Shown here in pieces: positions 25,193 through 32,467 of a DNA stretch of 64,000 nt. The stretch spans positions 1,426,001 to 1,490,000 of the forward strand of contig NZ_JAMQOP010000001.1 of the NCBI RefSeq assembly GCF_031624495.1, in the 5' to 3' direction. Source of the DNA: Halogeometricum sp. S1BR25-6. Its GTDB lineage: Archaea; Halobacteriota; Halobacteria; Halobacteriales; Haloferacaceae. The position numbers and the translations under genes are program-made. The notes under the pieces are model-generated. The model saw nothing but the letters and a program-made list of their open reading frames with translations, was not told where the DNA came from and ran no database searches. Positions within the stretch are counted from its first letter, which is position 1; the number at the start of each line of letters is the position of its first letter.

Positions 25193-25987
25193 ATGGATCA
25201 GGGAGGTGGAGCCGGCGGCGTCCCCGGCGAGGCGCCGGAACTCGCCGCTGCGCTCGACGAGCTGAAACGGCGCGGAAGCGCGCTCCTGGTCGTCGGTTCG
25301 GTACCGGCGGACGTCTACCGGCGGGTGTCCGTGCGGATGCTCGGCGACGGGGACGCGGCGCCCAGACGTCGGCTCCTCGTGACGAACGCCACCGACGACG
25401 AACGGGACTCGCGGCTGGAGGCCGTCGAGCGCCGAACGCCCGAGTGGACTCGAATCGTTCAGTTCGCCGCCGCGTCGAGGGGGTCCGCGGCCGCCTCGGC
25501 CGGACCGACGTCGACCGTCTCGCCGATGGAACCGGGAGTGGCGTCGGACTCCGATGCCGACGCCGACTCCGACTCCGGTTCGGACGCCGACGCCGACACC
25601 GGCGGCGACCCCATCGCACACCGCGTCGACGGGGGCGTGGTCGAGTTGGGTGCCGAGGTGACCAAGACGGTCGAGCAGTTCGACGCCATCGCCGGCGGAC
25701 TGGCGCCCGCGGAACTCAGGGTCGCGTTCGACTGCCTGCCGACCCTCGTCGCCGAGTACGACCTCGAAACCGGCTTCCGGTTCGCGCACATCTTCGCGAA
25801 CCACGTCCGCATCGTCGACGGCATGGCGCACTTTTGGCTCCCGCGCGAGCGAGACGACGAGGCCGTCCGCGTGCTCGAACCGCTGTTCGACGCGACGGTC
25901 GAACTCTGCCTCGACGGAACCCAGTTGCGCCAGCGCTGGCACTTCCGCGACAGCAACCTCTCGTCGGATTGGCTCGTGCTGGAATGA
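25193..25987 (+). CDS. DUF7504-family protein (degenerate KaiC/RadA-like)
   Basis: 264 residues. Residues about 15-90 resemble the first strands of a RecA/KaiC-like fold (RRGSALLVVGSVPADVYRRV, RRLLVTNATDDERDSRL) but without a Walker A motif. An Asp-Ser-Ala low-complexity linker (about 110-140) follows. The C-terminal part (about 150-264: FDAIAGGLAPAELRVAFDCL, FRFAHIFANHVRIVDGMAHF, RQRWHFRDSN) is the conserved portion of these haloarchaeal proteins. Function unknown; the fold suggests a former ATPase kept for protein contacts. ATG 25193 follows the TATA box by 28 bases. The CHAT-domain gene begins 56 bases downstream, and a DUF7503 peptide gene closes the cassette. Confidence 0.7.
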   Translation: MDQGGGAGGVPGEAPELAAALDELKRRGSALLVVGSVPADVYRRVSVRMLGDGDAAPRRRLLVTNATDDERDSRLEAVERRTPEWTRIVQFAAASRGSAAASAGPTSTVSPMEPGVASDSDADADSDSGSDADADTGGDPIAHRVDGGVVELGAEVTKTVEQFDAIAGGLAPAELRVAFDCLPTLVAEYDLETGFRFAHIFANHVRIVDGMAHFWLPRERDDEAVRVLEPLFDATVELCLDGTQLRQRWHFRDSNLSSDWLVLE

Positions 25988-26042
25988 CCGCACCGCTCGA
26001 TACGCCGAGTGTGACCGACCAACACGCTTTTACTCGCAAACG

Positions 26043-28217
26043 ATGACAGAGAAGATGATGGAACGGTTCGAGAATCCGGAGAGTTGGTCGCTCGCGACTC
26101 CCGAGACGCACCTCGAACTCTCGCTCGAACCGGTTCCCGGCGGCGACGGGATACTCGTCACCGACCCGATAGAGCGTCACCAGTTCGCACTGTCGACGCC
26201 CTCGGTGCTCGACCTCGAACCGGCCGACCCGGACGCGTTCTGGTTTCCGGCCGACGCCGCCGTTCGCTTCCGCACCGACAGGCTCGACCTCCAGTCGGTC
26301 GTCTCGGTCTGCGTCCGCGACGACGAGGGACGGATGCTGGGGCAGACGGAACACTACGCCTCGGAGTCGTTTCCGCGCGCGACGTACAGTTTGGAACTGT
26401 TCGCGCCCGTCAAGACGTACGTGCGCGTCACCGCGCCGCTGACGGTCAGTTCCGACGCCGAGCGGACGACGCTGTCGTTCGGCGAGGAAACGGAGGTGCT
26501 CGTCGGCGCGCGCTCGCACCACAAACGCCCCGCGACGACCATCACGACTCCGGACGACCCGCGGTCGATGATGCGGGCGGTGTCGCTGCTCGGGTCGGCG
26601 CTGAAGACCACCTCGCCCGAGCGGTCGTACCCCACGCTCCGAGGGCATCCGCCGCTCATCGAACGCGGCGAGACGTTCCGCGCGCCGCCGAGCATGACCG
26701 CGCCCGAGACGGGAGTCACGCTGGAACTCCCGGCGACGCACCGCCACGTGTACGTGGCCGCGCCGCTGGCGTACTACCTCGGCGCCACCGTCGTCGAGGG
26801 GGAGACGCCGCGGCTCCGAACGTCGGAGGGCTTCACCTACGACCTGGACACGGCGGTGGGGTACGAACGCGCCGTCGAGCGCACGCTCAAACAGACATTC
26901 TTCCTCGACTGCCTCGCTCGCACGGAGGGGTACTACCAGGTGGACCTACACGAGCGTCGGGCGGTCGAGGAGCGCCTCGACCTCGACTTCGCCGACCTGT
27001 ACGGCCGGTCGCTGGCCGAACGGGTCGAAGCCTACCTGCAGGTGCCGTACGACGCCGTCGCCGACCACGTCCCGGAGTGGAAGCTCACGACGCACGTGAC
27101 GCCGACGCCGGACAACGTCGAACTCCTGCCGTTCGTGGCGAACGACCTTGCCATCGTCCGGACGCCTCGGGCGAAACCGACCGCGAGTTCCGAGACGCAG
27201 GCGGCGGCCGTCGGGGCTTTCCTGCGGTCCTCGCCGCCCGCCGACGGCGTCGCTTCCGGGGACGACTTCACCCGGAGCGCGAGCGGAGCGACGCCGCTCC
27301 CGGAGCGGACGTACGTTCAACCCGAGGAGACCGATTCGCTGGAACAGGCGTGGGTCGGCGAGGGCACTCCGATCGGTGCGAGCAAGGCCTCGCTGCAGGC
27401 GTATCGCAACCGGCTGTACCGGTCGCCGACGGAGGGCGACATCGGCATCACCGTCGTCTGCAACGACCCCAAGATGGCCGACGAACGGGAGGACGTGGAG
27501 ACGGTGTACGGTTCGCGCGACTCGCTCCCGTTCGACGTGCAGGTGCAGTACGAGTTGACGCGGGCGGAACTCCGGGACGCGCTCGCCGGCGAGACCGACT
27601 TCTTCCACTACATCGGGCACATCGACGACGACGGCTTCCACTGCTCCGACGGGACGCTCGACGCCGCGACGCTTTCGGAGGTTGGTACGGACGCGTTCCT
27701 GCTCAACGCCTGCCGGTCGTACGAGCAAGGGATGCACCTCATCGAGGCGGGCGCCATCGCCGGCATCGTGACGCTCGACGACGTCGTGAACAGCAGCGCC
27801 GTCGAAGTCGGGTCGATGCTCGCGAGGTTGTTGAACGGTGGGTTTCCAGTTCGAACAGCATTAGAGATTCTGAAGAAGACAAACCTCCCCGACAACGACT
27901 ACCTCGTCGTCGGTGATGGTGGACATCCGATAGCTCAAACCGATGGTGCATTTCCGAATTCGGTCGAAATCGAGAAGCAATCCGACGGCTCGTTCGAGCT
28001 CATCTACCACACGTACCCCGCCGCCGAGTTCGGTATGGGTTCACTAGTCCAACCGCTCTTACCTGGAGAACACTCTTACTACTTATCATCGGGTACTGCA
28101 AACGTATTCACGCTCTCGGAACCCGAGCTAAGAGACTTCCTCAATCTGGAGAGGGTTCCGCTCCTCGCCAACGGTTCGTTGTACTGGAGTGACGAGTTCA
28201 GTACTGACGTACTCTAA
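26043..28217 (+). CDS. CHAT (caspase-like) domain protein, 724 aa
   Basis: The last third carries a caspase/CHAT-type protease core. His526 is in FFHYIGHIDDDGFH and Cys557 in DAFLLNACRSYEQGMHLIEA, followed by GAIAGIVTL, the usual strand-His-loop and strand-Cys order. The first ~480 residues have no recognised domain but contain many beta strands (HRHVYVAAPLAYYLGATVVE) and may be the sensor or target-binding part. No membrane segment. ATGs at 26055 and 26058 are alternative starts. GC falls clearly from about 27840 to the stop. The predicted peptidase sits between a DUF7504 gene and a convergent DUF7503 gene whose stop codon abuts its own. Catalytic activity is inferred from the dyad only. Confidence 0.72.
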   Translation: MTEKMMERFENPESWSLATPETHLELSLEPVPGGDGILVTDPIERHQFALSTPSVLDLEPADPDAFWFPADAAVRFRTDRLDLQSVVSVCVRDDEGRMLGQTEHYASESFPRATYSLELFAPVKTYVRVTAPLTVSSDAERTTLSFGEETEVLVGARSHHKRPATTITTPDDPRSMMRAVSLLGSALKTTSPERSYPTLRGHPPLIERGETFRAPPSMTAPETGVTLELPATHRHVYVAAPLAYYLGATVVEGETPRLRTSEGFTYDLDTAVGYERAVERTLKQTFFLDCLARTEGYYQVDLHERRAVEERLDLDFADLYGRSLAERVEAYLQVPYDAVADHVPEWKLTTHVTPTPDNVELLPFVANDLAIVRTPRAKPTASSETQAAAVGAFLRSSPPADGVASGDDFTRSASGATPLPERTYVQPEETDSLEQAWVGEGTPIGASKASLQAYRNRLYRSPTEGDIGITVVCNDPKMADEREDVETVYGSRDSLPFDVQVQYELTRAELRDALAGETDFFHYIGHIDDDGFHCSDGTLDAATLSEVGTDAFLLNACRSYEQGMHLIEAGAIAGIVTLDDVVNSSAVEVGSMLARLLNGGFPVRTALEILKKTNLPDNDYLVVGDGGHPIAQTDGAFPNSVEIEKQSDGSFELIYHTYPAAEFGMGSLVQPLLPGEHSYYLSSGTANVFTLSEPELRDFLNLERVPLLANGSLYWSDEFSTDVL

Positions 28218-28361
28218 TTACGGACCCGAGATACCGACGTTGTTCCCCGCCGCGACGGACCCCGCCTGCGATAGCAGCAGCAGGGCCGTGAACAGGACGC
28301 CCATCATGCGCGGGTGGTCGGTCAGGTACTGTGCGACAGCGTTCGCGTCATCTTCGGACAT
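28218..28361 (-). CDS. DUF7503-family small membrane peptide, 47 aa
   Basis: A 47-residue peptide begins MSEDDANAVAQYLTDHPRMM, followed by one hydrophobic segment (about residues 21-38, GVLFTALLLLSQAGSVAA) and a short tail ending GISGP. One transmembrane helix or signal-like peptide with a cytoplasmic acidic N-terminus is likely. Very similar short peptides are annotated in haloarchaea as DUF7503, commonly beside DUF7504 proteins (from memory). Its TAA directly abuts the TAA of the CHAT gene, so the two are convergent with no spacer. Function unknown; it could be a membrane partner or target of the CHAT protein. Confidence 0.72.
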   Translation of the reverse strand: MSEDDANAVAQYLTDHPRMMGVLFTALLLLSQAGSVAAGNNVGISGP

Positions 28362-28563: not shown

Positions 28564-29166
28564 TCAGTTCTCGCTTTCGAGGTCCTCGAACGCGGAGTTG
28601 TCGCCGAGGTCGCGGTAGACGGCCGCGATGTCGCGTTCCTCGTCGAACTGACGGAGGGTCTCGTCGAGGTCCGCGCGGAGTTCCGAGAGGCGCGCGTCGA
28701 GTTCGCGGTACTCGTCGTTCTCCTCCAAGGTGGCCGCCTCCTTCTCCGATTCGAGGAGGGCCTTCTTCGAGGCGAGCGAGAACAGTTCCTGGACGCCGTC
28801 GTTGTAGGAGTTCCTCAGGAGGAGGTTGTCGACCGTCTCTTCGAGGGCCTCCTTCGAGACGGGTTTGACGAGGTAGTCGTCGAAGCCCATGGCGACGATG
28901 TCGAAATCCGGTTCGACGGCCGTCACCATCGCGACGCGGCACTCGAAACCGCGGTTCCGTATCTCCGCGAGGGCTTCGTCTCCGGAGAGGTCCGGCATGC
29001 GGCGGTCGAGGAGGACGACGTCGACGTCTCCGTCGAGTTGGTCGAGCGCCTCGTGACCGCCGTAGGCGACGCGGACACGACAGTTCTCTCTGAGCCACGT
29101 TGCGTACAGGTCGGCGAGGTCCGGCTCATCTTCGACGATGAGCACGAGCGGCTGGTCAGCACTCAT
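28564..29166 (-). CDS. HalX-domain response regulator
   Basis: 200 residues. The receiver domain (1-120) has acidic Glu12/Asp13, phospho-acceptor Asp54 in DVVLLDRRMP, a Thr in MVTAVEP, and the conserved Lys in YLVKPVSKEAL. After it comes the HalX region (about 125-180), a coiled, Glu-rich helix set found only in haloarchaea (FSLASKKALLESEKEAATLE). No DNA-binding domain is present, so output is by protein contact. No histidine kinase is adjacent. It is separated by about 200 AT-rich bases from the DUF7503 gene on the same strand. Confidence 0.9.
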   Translation of the reverse strand: MSADQPLVLIVEDEPDLADLYATWLRENCRVRVAYGGHEALDQLDGDVDVVLLDRRMPDLSGDEALAEIRNRGFECRVAMVTAVEPDFDIVAMGFDDYLVKPVSKEALEETVDNLLLRNSYNDGVQELFSLASKKALLESEKEAATLEENDEYRELDARLSELRADLDETLRQFDEERDIAAVYRDLGDNSAFEDLESEN

Positions 29167-29360
29167 TTGTATGTCCGTGGTGTTCCCGGAACACGCACGT
29201 CATCGAATGAAACGCGTGGGCATATCAATATACCCCTTATTCTGTCTGACGTGAACAAATTGGTTCCGGTCCACATAGATATCCAGTCAGAAGTTCGCAA
29301 CTACTTAGATTTATATGTTTCGTCCGAATTCGCACGGAGTGAGACGCGGGCGCAATCCGC

Positions 29361-30437
29361 TCACTTCGCCACGTCGGTAATCGTCACGCGCGTCGCCTCT
29401 ACCTCTTCGAGAACGGCGCCCCATCCGCCGACGCTGTAGGACCCTCCGTTGGTCCGAAGAGTGAAACACACCTGTCCGGCCAACTGCGAGAGGGGGGGCG
29501 TCCCGTCCGTCTCCGCCGCGCCCGAGTAGCGGAGTTCGACGACGTCCCCGGAGAGGTCGACGGCCTCGCCGGTCTCGGTGTCGAACCCCGCTACCGAGGC
29601 GCGGACGGTCGCTCCCGCCGAGAAGTAGGGTTCGATGGTGCGGACACACCGCCTGATGTCGGCGAAGACGAACGGCGGGTCGTCGTCGCCCTCGGCGTAG
29701 ATAGTGTCCCACACCTCCCACAGGCAGGTCTGGAAGTACCAGTGGAAGACGTACGTGAGCGTGTAGTCGTCGACCAGCACGCCGTACTGGTTCAGCGAGT
29801 TCGCGTGCGGCGCGAAGCAGGTTCCGGTCCGGTCGACGAGGAGGACGAACGGCGCCGGAAGCGTCCGGTGTCGCGCCTCGGTGACGACGCCCTCGAAGTC
29901 GGCGGCGTCGAACGCCGACAGGTCGGTGTCGGGGTCGGTGTGGAGCGACACTTTCACGATGGCGTCGTTGCGGTACGCCTCCCGGAGCGCGGGCCGGAGG
30001 TTCTCGTACTGTTCGGGCGTCGCCGACAGTTGCACCTCGCTCTCCGCCTCGCGGATGAACGACGCGGCGCGCTGGAGCACCGTGTCGAACCGCTTGACGA
30101 TGCTCAGCATGTGCGGGTCGACTTCGGGCGCCTCCCAGCGGTCCTCTATCTCGTCGGCCGCCGTCTCCAGCATCGTGGCGCGGCCGCGGAGGTCCTCCAG
30201 AACGGTCTCGGGGTCGCACGCCCGCGCGTGGAGGCTGTCCTGCTCGTACGTCTCGATGTACCCCTTCGCCTCCAGGTCCCTGAGCACGTCGTAGATGCGC
30301 GCGGTGGGAACCGCGCAGGCGTCGGCCAGTTCGGTGGCGCTGGCGGTACCCAACTGCAGGAGAGTGTTGTACGCCTCCGCTTGGTACTGCGAGAGCCCAG
30401 CGTCTTCGAGGGCGTCACGCAACTCCGTGGAGTTCAT
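29361..30437 (-). CDS. trmB: TrmB-family transcriptional regulator
   Basis: 358 residues. The N-terminal winged helix (about 5-75: ELRDALEDAGLSQYQAEAYN, TASATELADACAVPTARIYDVLRDLEAKGYIET) is the TrmB-type sugar-responsive HTH. A coiled segment and a large effector domain follow (SEVQLSATPEQYENLRPALR; FAPHANSLNQYGVLVDDYTL), with a C-terminal beta domain. Length and order match the global haloarchaeal TrmB that controls gluconeogenesis and glycolysis in Halobacterium (established there). The ATG has a TATA-like TTAAT 25-29 bases upstream. Orthology rather than paralogy is inferred. Confidence 0.85.
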   Translation of the reverse strand: MNSTELRDALEDAGLSQYQAEAYNTLLQLGTASATELADACAVPTARIYDVLRDLEAKGYIETYEQDSLHARACDPETVLEDLRGRATMLETAADEIEDRWEAPEVDPHMLSIVKRFDTVLQRAASFIREAESEVQLSATPEQYENLRPALREAYRNDAIVKVSLHTDPDTDLSAFDAADFEGVVTEARHRTLPAPFVLLVDRTGTCFAPHANSLNQYGVLVDDYTLTYVFHWYFQTCLWEVWDTIYAEGDDDPPFVFADIRRCVRTIEPYFSAGATVRASVAGFDTETGEAVDLSGDVVELRYSGAAETDGTPPLSQLAGQVCFTLRTNGGSYSVGGWGAVLEEVEATRVTITDVAK

Positions 30438-30639
30438 GCACTCCGTCGTGATTGAACCGCATTAATCATCATTGTTTCGGGTAGCCACTACAGGAGTTGT
30501 AACACAGTCAGCGTGAACGGACGGAGGGGTGAACCACGCTGTCACGCCCCCGAGCGGCCCGTTTCGGGACAGAGACACCACCGGTGTGGTCGGCAAGCCG
30601 AAGAAGGCGGAGAAGGGCAGCCGGTTCTGGTACGAGAGT

Positions 30640-32139
30640 TTACTCGTTCTGCGGGCTGTAGTTGGGCGCCTCGTCGGTGATCATCACGTCGTGGGGGTGA
30701 CCCTCAGTCTGTCCGGCGCTGGAGACGCGGATGAACTCGGCGCGTTCTTTGAACCCGGGGAGCGTCTCGGCGCCGACGTAGCCCATGCCCGAGCGCATGC
30801 CGCCGACGAGTTGGTGGAGTTCGGAGGCGAGCGTCCCCTTGTACGGCGTCGCCGCCTCGACGCCCTCGGGGACGAACTCCTCGTCCTCGTCGGCGTCCTT
30901 GAGGTACCGCTCGCCGCCGCCGGACTTCATCGCGCCGACGGAGCCCATGCCGCGGTACTGCTTGTACTTCTTGCCGTTCATCGTGATGACGCGGCCGGGC
31001 GCCTCCTCGGTGCCCGCGAAGTACGACCCGAGCATGACGGCGTCGGCGCCGGCGGCGATGGCCTTGATGGCGTCGCCGGAGTAGCGGATGCCCCCGTCGG
31101 CGATGACCGGCACGCCCTCGGGGGCGGCCACGTCGGCGACTTCGGCGACGGCGGTTATCTGCGGCATCCCGGCGCCGGAGACGACGCGGGTGGTGCAGAT
31201 GGAACCGGGGCCGATGCCGACCTTCAGACCGTCGGCGAAGTCGACGGCCGCCTCGGCGGCCTCGCGGGTACCGACGTTGCCGACGACGACGTCCGCCTCG
31301 ACGGACTGTTTTATCTCGCGGGCGCTGTCGAGCACGTTGAGGTTGTGTGCGTGCGCGCAGTCGATGAACAGGATGTCGGCGCCGGCTTCGTCGGCCGCCG
31401 CCGCGCGGTCGGACTCGAACGGGCCGACGGCGACGCCGCAGACGAGGCGGCCGTCGTCGTCGCGCGCGGCGTTCTCGTGCTCCCGTCGTTGGAGGATGCC
31501 CTGCATCGTCACCAGACCGACGAGGCGCCCCTCGTCGTCGACGACGGGGACGCGCTCTATCTTGTGGTCGTACATGAGTTCGAGGGCGTCGCGGGCGTTC
31601 AGGTCGCGGCCGGCCGTGATGACCTCGTCCGTCATCGCCTCGCGGACGGCGTCGGACTCGCCGACTTCGAGGTACGGGCGGATGTCGGTGCCGGAAATGA
31701 TGCCGAGCACCTCATCGTCCTCGTCGACGACGGGGGCGCCGGAGACGCCCTGGCGCTCCATCATCTCGTCCACCTCGCTGATGGTCTGGGACGGACGAGC
31801 GGTCACGACGTTCTCGCGGCGGATGACGAGTTCGTCGGCGCGCTTCACGCGCTCTATCTGCGTCACCATCGTCTCCGTGTTCATGTTCTGGTGGAGAACG
31901 CCGAGACCACCCTCGCGAGCCATTCCGATAGCCATGCCGCTCTCGGTGACGGTGTCCATGGCCGCCGAGAGCACGGGGAGGTTCAGTTCGACGTTCTTCG
32001 AGACGACCGTCGACACGTCCGCCTCGTCGGGTTCAACCCGACTCTCCATCGGACGGAGCAGTACGTCGTCGAACGTCAGTGCCTCTGGTACGCGCAGTTT
32101 CTCGGAGAAGGACTCTCGGTCCGGAACGTCGTTCGCCAT
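30640..32139 (-). CDS. guaB: IMP dehydrogenase
   Basis: 499 residues. Converts IMP to XMP with NAD+, the committed step of GTP synthesis. The N-terminal TIM-barrel part has [13 protein letters not shown]. Two CBS domains (about 95-205) follow, with [12 protein letters not shown] and [12 protein letters not shown]. The catalytic loop [20 protein letters not shown] holds the active-site Cys, and the flap carries [16 protein letters not shown] 32139 gives the conserved MANDVPDR; an in-frame codon at 32184 would add an AT-rich, unconserved leader. Transcribed alone between TrmB and a divergent gene set. Confidence 0.95.
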
Positions 32140-32467
32140 GTAAATCGTCCAGACTCCTGCGACAAAAGGGTTGCGAGACAGCACAGGTGTGCAGTGTATT
32201 GCCAGTCATGCGGTTCAGATATACACGTTCGAGGATATCTGTCGGCGACAACGAGACGCGAAGCGCGCTCGCGGACTCCGAAATCCGGAGAGGAGACGAC
32301 GTTCGCAAGAATCACCCGAACCGCCACGGCACACCGACGGATAGTCGGACAGAGAAACAAAAACCGACTATTCGTAGGCTAGTTTATATGGGGAGGTGAG
32401 AGGTACTGGTTCCCGTGCCGTGCGGTCTCACACAAATTTTAATAGTTCAGTACGATTGTTGGTAGAT
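32140..32467. other. Divergent promoter region between guaB and the DUF5794 genes
   Basis: Medium-GC DNA with several AT-rich islands, including TTTATATG near 32385 and TTTTAATA at 32437-32444, both on the plus strand. The latter has the right spacing for the small reading frame starting at 32468. No RNA gene or protein family is recognised. Confidence 0.5.

Follow-up and report, generated by a model that had tools for sequence, protein, structure and literature searches.

Organization of the locus

We analyzed a 64,000-nucleotide stretch of Halogeometricum sp. S1BR25-6 (contig NZ_JAMQOP010000001.1, positions 1,426,001 to 1,490,000; hereafter the window), which carries a gene for a CHAT-like protein of 724 amino acids (aa) and, meeting it tail to tail, a small gene for a 47-aa DUF7503 peptide. 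These two products are interpreted below as a probable peptide-recognition pair. The CHAT-like gene is an open reading frame (ORF) on the plus strand (26043-28217) and belongs to a class-wide family, in which the window type is referred to as group A. The DUF7503 gene lies on the minus strand (28218-28361) and matches PF24335 with an E-value of 3.4e-22 (78.2 bits; cut-off 27). Their stop codons abut exactly, the TAA of the CHAT gene occupying 28215-28217 and the reverse-strand TAA of DUF7503 occupying 28218-28220. Upstream on the plus strand, a 264-aa DUF7504 protein (25193-25987) matches PF24336 with an E-value of 4.7e-53 (180.8 bits; cut-off 27). ORFs and Pfam matches thereby confirm the three genes, as well as the touching stop codons, that a first-pass annotation of this DNA had described. 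Both DUF7503 (PF24335) and DUF7504 (PF24336) are listed in Pfam as families of unknown function.

The DUF7503 peptide of the window consists of an acidic N-terminal part, a DHPR motif, a hydrophobic helix and the tail GNNVGISGP. The codons of this tail (28221-28247, minus strand) encode the peptide presumed to be recognized, as judged from its conserved ends and from its tandem repetition in another genus (g14).

Distribution of the CHAT-like family and conservation of the dyad

The CHAT-like family was detected in 365 of the 391 haloarchaeal genomes, covering 78 of 86 genera, often with at least two copies per genome. Because one genome was sampled per species, alleles are compared here between species rather than within populations; in each of the CHAT, DUF7504 and DUF7503 family searches, the individual matches listed are the best 150. 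The second copy in the window genome (G000:C2:83287-85098), which is 34% identical to the window protein, represents a further type, designated group B. Family copies also occur on megaplasmids, and some genera carry several per genome. Distant relatives outside the class were found in four genomes of a family of the same phylum (f19; E-values of 7e-54 to 3e-59), with no recognizable convergent partner in the stretches read (L100-L103); one of them, L100, has lost both dyad residues. A viral or phage origin was rejected, as neither viral contigs nor phage records contained relatives of the CHAT family.

The CHAT-type catalytic region spans residues ~465-615 (27435-27887, plus strand) and is recognized from invariant columns, including the motifs HYIGH and LNACxSY, and from PF12770 (CHAT) matches in relatives. 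The presumed dyad residues His526 (27618-27620, plus strand) and Cys557 (27711-27713, plus strand) are invariant in all 138 group A proteins and in all 85 members of a partly overlapping set comprising groups A and B; they stand in H-x-x-x-H and LNxC contexts. PF12770 gave sub-threshold to weak matches in 16 of 45 family members (best 1.9e-4), and application of the CHAT model to 79 genomes placed group B genes at 33.3 and 28.1 bits (PF12770 cut-off 24). In the NCBI annotation, two plasmid members are named 'CHAT domain-containing protein' and 'caspase family protein', while most others are 'hypothetical protein'. The 724-aa window protein itself returned no Pfam, NCBIfam or PADLOC match at E<=1, a PDB sequence profile search found no meaningful relative, and no tetratricopeptide repeat (TPR) families were detected in it or in 45 relatives. 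On the basis of the motifs and of the relatives, some of which exceed the PF12770 cut-off, we accept a CHAT-type domain for the window family and infer protease activity. The intact dyad described in the first-pass annotation is thus upheld across the family, and its CHAT assignment holds by way of motifs and relatives rather than through any match of the window protein itself.

The convergent partner gene and its Gly-Pro tail

Among the matches listed, 73 of the 77 DUF7503 genes in genomes whose CHAT gene was also listed lie convergent to and directly downstream of that gene, with a median gap of 20 nt, and this layout is therefore far beyond chance. A convergent partner is present at 134 of 138 group A loci, and 123 of these partners end in Gly-Pro; the last sense codons of the two genes are at most 12 nt apart in 93 of the 134 pairs, and the stop codons overlap in 32. 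Within 170 nt, a convergent ORF with a Gly-Pro end was found at 49/55 group A loci, 20/30 group B loci and 5/13 other loci, compared with 2/294 control windows. The co-occurrence of the CHAT gene with a small convergent gene, observed initially in this genome, is accordingly a class-wide feature, and the condition that the first-pass annotation set for refuting its reading, a co-occurrence confined to this genome, clearly does not apply. As part of the DNA itself, for instance as a signal at the junction, the Gly-Pro end is unlikely to act, given that its codons vary and that its spacing to the CHAT stop codon also varies.

The partner gene is coding, and its product has a defined architecture. 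Changes between close DUF7503 pairs are mostly synonymous, with a ratio of nonsynonymous to synonymous divergence (dN/dS) of about 0.05-0.2 in most. The usual partner comprises an acidic N-terminal part, (H/N)P(R/K), a hydrophobic helix, QAGxxAA and the tail, examples of which are GNNVGISGP, GNTSVIYGP and NNSAYPGP. The hydrophobic helix is present in 121 of 132 partners scored, a basic residue stands just before it in 118 of these 121 membrane-type partners, and a signal-like N-terminal part occurs in most partners and is absent in some. Multiple pairs can coexist: one locus (L043; G374:C1) carries two CHAT and DUF7503 pairs inside a single 17-kb stretch, with the tails GASAYSGP and VARACYGP, and some genomes contain up to 6 DUF7503 matches.

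Partners that retain the tail without the helix

Several partners lack the helix and retain the C-terminal Gly-Pro tail, indicating that the membrane helix is not the essential feature. In genus g14, most partners begin in a DUF7503-like manner (MSERDSGTV...), have lost the helix and carry 4-14 tandem 13-residue tail units, such as YTADGNGGGISGP, while sister species retain the 47-residue helix form. Such tandem-repeat partners occur at L104/L105 (the same loci as L017 and L019) and at L112-L120, with units ending in GISGP or AVSGP and with copy numbers that vary between species. The DUF7503 model misses these partners, and the g14 genomes appear without a DUF7503 match. With the exception of L113, every locus scored shows nothing but synonymous codon changes from unit to unit; at L113, pairwise comparison of codons yielded 379 synonymous against 41 nonsynonymous differences, and residue changes are confined to unit position 1. 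Judged from these codon comparisons, the tandem multiplication of the tail has evidently proceeded under purifying selection.

Group B partners in family f4 are short and share little similarity except for the end, (A/S)KR(V/I)STYGGP or near variants. Small convergent ORFs of this KRVSTYGGP type were found immediately past the group B CHAT genes at L066, L067, L069, L071, L074-L076, L078, L080-L082 and L086, with barely conserved N-terminal parts. In family f1, the group B partners belong to the HPR-helix type, with ends such as GHSTSTGP, and a distant relative shows ...NVAGNGTVITGP and lacks a helix. For the group B gene of the window genome (L002/L038), no Gly-Pro partner was found; a GP codon pair lies past its stop codon, in an unterminated frame. 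Taken at the level of sequence, the tail, rather than the helix, is evidently the functional unit of the partner. The idea of a membrane effector as the core of the system was rejected because of the helix-less partners, and the membrane nature of the peptide, noted in the first-pass annotation, does not hold for every partner; of that annotation's suggestion that the peptide is a 'target or partner', the role of partner is the one borne out.

Allelic matching between the CHAT C-terminus and the tail

Past the dyad region, CHAT residues 628-724 (~97 residues; 27924-28214, plus strand) form a hypervariable, AT-rich C-terminal domain, which is presumed to recognize the tail on the basis of its GC content, synonymous divergence and tail tracking. 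In the window gene, GC content is 0.53 in this domain versus 0.69 in the core; it is lower in the C-terminus than in the core in 135 of 138 genes (0.54 vs 0.66), with a third-codon-position GC content (GC3) of 0.64 vs 0.83. Synonymous divergence (dS) is about 2 or saturated in the C-terminal domain versus 0.46 in the core, and this combination of low GC and near-saturated dS is as expected for old, exchanged alleles. AlphaFold predicts a beta-beta-beta-alpha-beta-beta order for the domain, with mean block values of the predicted local distance difference test (pLDDT) of ~73-89 over most of it.

The variation is not random with respect to the partner. Across the 13 species of genus g29, the core shows ~94% identity, yet the C-terminal parts sort into discrete groups that follow the partner tail: at equal core identity (0.94), C-terminal identity is 0.79 between proteins with the same tail and 0.48 between those with different tails. 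Across pairs with a core identity of at least 0.85, C-terminal identity is 0.48, 0.52, 0.58, 0.70 and 0.86 for 5, 6, 7, 8 and 9 of nine tail matches, respectively, with N-terminal and linker identity remaining flat. Within-cluster permutation of tails, in which the clusters are small, yielded a partial r of 0.52 (P 0.001) for the C-terminal domain; for the DUF7503 body adjoining the tail, the correlation with this domain is lower (0.33 vs 0.52 for the tail). Nucleotide identity profiles over the junction reveal one variable block of ~360 nt (approximately 27850-28250 in the window), beginning in the 3' part of the CHAT gene, crossing both stop codons and the tail, and ending sharply at the DUF7503 body, where identity regains 95-97%. 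Group B in family f4, in which the tail is constant, served as a control: C-terminal identity follows that of the core, and GC3 in group B is not depressed in the C-terminus (0.83 vs 0.84). We regard these comparisons as demonstrating, at the sequence level, allele matching between the CHAT C-terminus and the partner tail.

DUF7504 and other neighboring genes

DUF7504 lies upstream on the same strand at 40 of 55 sampled group A loci (counted by hand), and it is a multi-copy family present in 391/391 genomes of the class, with up to 9 matches per genome. An obligate status for the three-gene cassette of the first-pass annotation was rejected, as DUF7504 is missing upstream in ~1/4 of the sampled loci and does not adjoin group B CHAT pairs; it is a frequent but optional neighbor. 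Its alignment contains no Walker A motif GK(S/T), which is compatible with the idea of a degenerate KaiC protein, and a profile search against PDB sequences gave that idea no support, finding no KaiC at E<=1.

Pfam matches around the pair in the window comprise Usp, DUF7504, a HalX regulator, TrmB and IMPDH. The HalX response regulator, the TrmB regulator and IMPDH follow the CHAT/DUF7503 pair at 28567-32184 (minus strand), and in many genomes of family f1 HalX and/or IMPDH also follow it.

Proposed mechanism and alternative explanations

We propose that the CHAT protein and the convergent peptide are probably a cognate peptide-recognition pair, in which CHAT action would be controlled by recognition or would follow it. 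The small convergent gene would supply a short C-terminal peptide, a tail of ~8-9 residues usually ending in Gly-Pro. This tail would be recognized by the rapidly evolving C-terminal domain of the CHAT protein, and recognition would control, or precede, the action of the CHAT cysteine-protease domain. The tail-to-tail arrangement of the genes would place both specificity segments in one contiguous block that could be exchanged as a whole, and the convergent layout would have been kept across the class because both segments move together. The simplest function would be a polymorphic, pherotype-like peptide-signaling system or a kin-recognition system, in which a precursor with a membrane or signal-like N-terminal part has its tail released for the allele-matched CHAT protein to read. 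Release of the tail would fit the signal-like N-terminal part, the multi-copy precursors and the pherotype-like polymorphism. Recognition between the CHAT C-terminus and the tail appears well supported by the matching described above; physical binding, proteolysis, peptide release or export, and signaling as the outcome are steps that we infer. The whole has the look of a recognition system of the lock-and-key kind that is as yet undescribed and that may serve cell-to-cell signaling. In a broader form, which we advance tentatively and with less confidence than the pair itself, this would be a class-wide archaeal peptide communication, with Gly-Pro-ended, pheromone-like peptides read by the CHAT C-terminus and with pherotypes held under balancing selection and exchanged as a block.

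Several observations weigh against this proposal. The helix-less, leaderless partners (the g14 and KRVSTYGGP types) show no obvious export route for a putative secreted pheromone. A few group A partners end otherwise (TID, GI, IA, IS), and some group A loci have no partner found. In the permutation test, the N-terminal region of the CHAT protein also correlates with the tail, more weakly (r 0.30, P 0.005), so some shared ancestry remains in the matching. In addition, most of the CHAT region was modeled at pLDDT values of only ~25-40 in two AlphaFold predictions based on 7-sequence alignments, and no significant match came from Foldseek searches.

Among the alternatives, cell-internal regulation survives best, although we consider it unlikely. 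Here the tail would dock to the cell's own CHAT protease as an inhibitor or a substrate, with the helix as a membrane tether and without any communication between cells. The existence of partners with neither helix nor leader implies a tail able to act in the cytosol; AD-GN, which may be an Asp-type cleavage site, occurs in the g14 tandem units; KR precedes many group B tails; and Craspase Csx29 offers a precedent by binding its adjacent-gene substrate Csx30 via the C-terminal region of the latter (PMC10028731). Purely internal regulation, however, does not readily explain why a single genus should hold many discrete alleles of ancient origin, and in membrane-type partners the basic residue before the helix, together with the mostly uncharged tail, suggests an N-in/C-out orientation under the positive-inside rule.

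Less probable still is kin discrimination or antagonism, in which the peptide or the CHAT protein would be a toxin-like agent and its partner would provide self-recognition or immunity. Polymorphic conflict systems typically have allelic, AT-rich ends that can be exchanged, and the megaplasmid copies, several per genome in some genera, would suit such a role; nevertheless, the family is near-universal (365/391 genomes), its conserved part is the dyad domain and not the variable end, and neither PADLOC matches nor viral or phage copies were found.

The stress or defense executor suggested by the first-pass annotation, in which the CHAT protease would cleave a membrane peptide that then damages the membrane, has in our estimation become highly improbable. 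The intact dyad and the frequent hydrophobic helix (121/132) accord with it, as does the strong caspase-like activity reported from haloarchaea without a known gene (PMC3615174), but the g14 partners have lost the helix and yet retained and multiplied the tail, the conserved feature is the Gly-Pro tail, and no defense-system or viral signal was found. A known defense system was rejected, with no PADLOC match at E<=1 for the three proteins, and a defense role in general gains no positive support from this result, from the lack of phage or viral copies or from the near-universal presence of the family.

Linkage alone, whereby a recombination-prone junction would swap both 3' ends together while the products never come into contact, would follow from a contiguous block in which any exchange carries both ends, but it seems equally improbable given that the Gly-Pro end persists though its codons vary, that tandem tail copies are alike in protein and not in DNA, that the DUF7503 body beside the tail correlates less with the C-terminal domain, and that group B, although laid out in the same way, does not show this variability.

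Significance and comparison with known systems

If the proposed cognate pair is real, archaea would have a gene-encoded peptide-recognition system that is based on a caspase-type protein and occurs in nearly all of the haloarchaea surveyed, and the alleles of the pair would provide ready-made cognate and non-cognate peptide-protein pairs for bench testing. The CHAT family may also supply the gene behind the strong caspase-like activity that was reported from Haloferax volcanii without a gene homolog (PMC3615174) and that other enzymes could explain. A DUF7503 match was found in Haloferax volcanii. HVO_0582, considered as the corresponding H. volcanii gene, proved wrong, being cdrS. A literature search, which left preprints and most subscription papers outside its reach, found no publication on CHAT proteins in haloarchaea or naming DUF7503 or DUF7504. 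The two small genes of the window are members of these Pfam families, whereas the multi-tail, helix-less partners fall outside the DUF7503 model.

Among characterized CHAT proteins, cyanobacterial HetF (PMC8406250) is similar in being a putative protease with a cellular, non-defense role. It differs in its transmembrane and TPR domains and in acting in division and heterocyst development. HetF is not known to have a convergent peptide gene. The type III-E Craspase, composed of Csx29 (TPR-CHAT) and Csx30, likewise pairs a CHAT protease with a dedicated partner that is encoded nearby and bound via its C-terminal region (PMC10028731); in contrast, the haloarchaeal locus has no Cas7-11, TPR or CRISPR context, and its partner is peptide-sized and allelically matched.

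Resemblance to bacterial peptide-signaling systems is closer in organization than in components. The agr and ComQXPA systems (PMC10482373, PMC4408185) also fall into discrete pherotypes, in which neighboring sequences encode peptide and receptor segments that match each other; the parts of the haloarchaeal pair are non-homologous to theirs, and no AgrB- or ComQ-like processing enzyme or sensor kinase lies beside it. RRNPP(A) systems, including arbitrium AimR/AimP and Rap/Phr (PMC10075063, PMC11343458), similarly place a short precursor beside the receptor gene, with a short C-terminal peptide containing variable residues as the active part, and tandem duplicated propeptides occur in bacterial RRNPPA systems as well (PMC11343458). 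Their receptors, however, are TPR proteins from Firmicutes and from mobile elements of that phylum, whereas the system described here would rely on an archaeal CHAT-type protein in which no TPR was found, on convergent genes and on a variable recognition segment located at the C-terminus.

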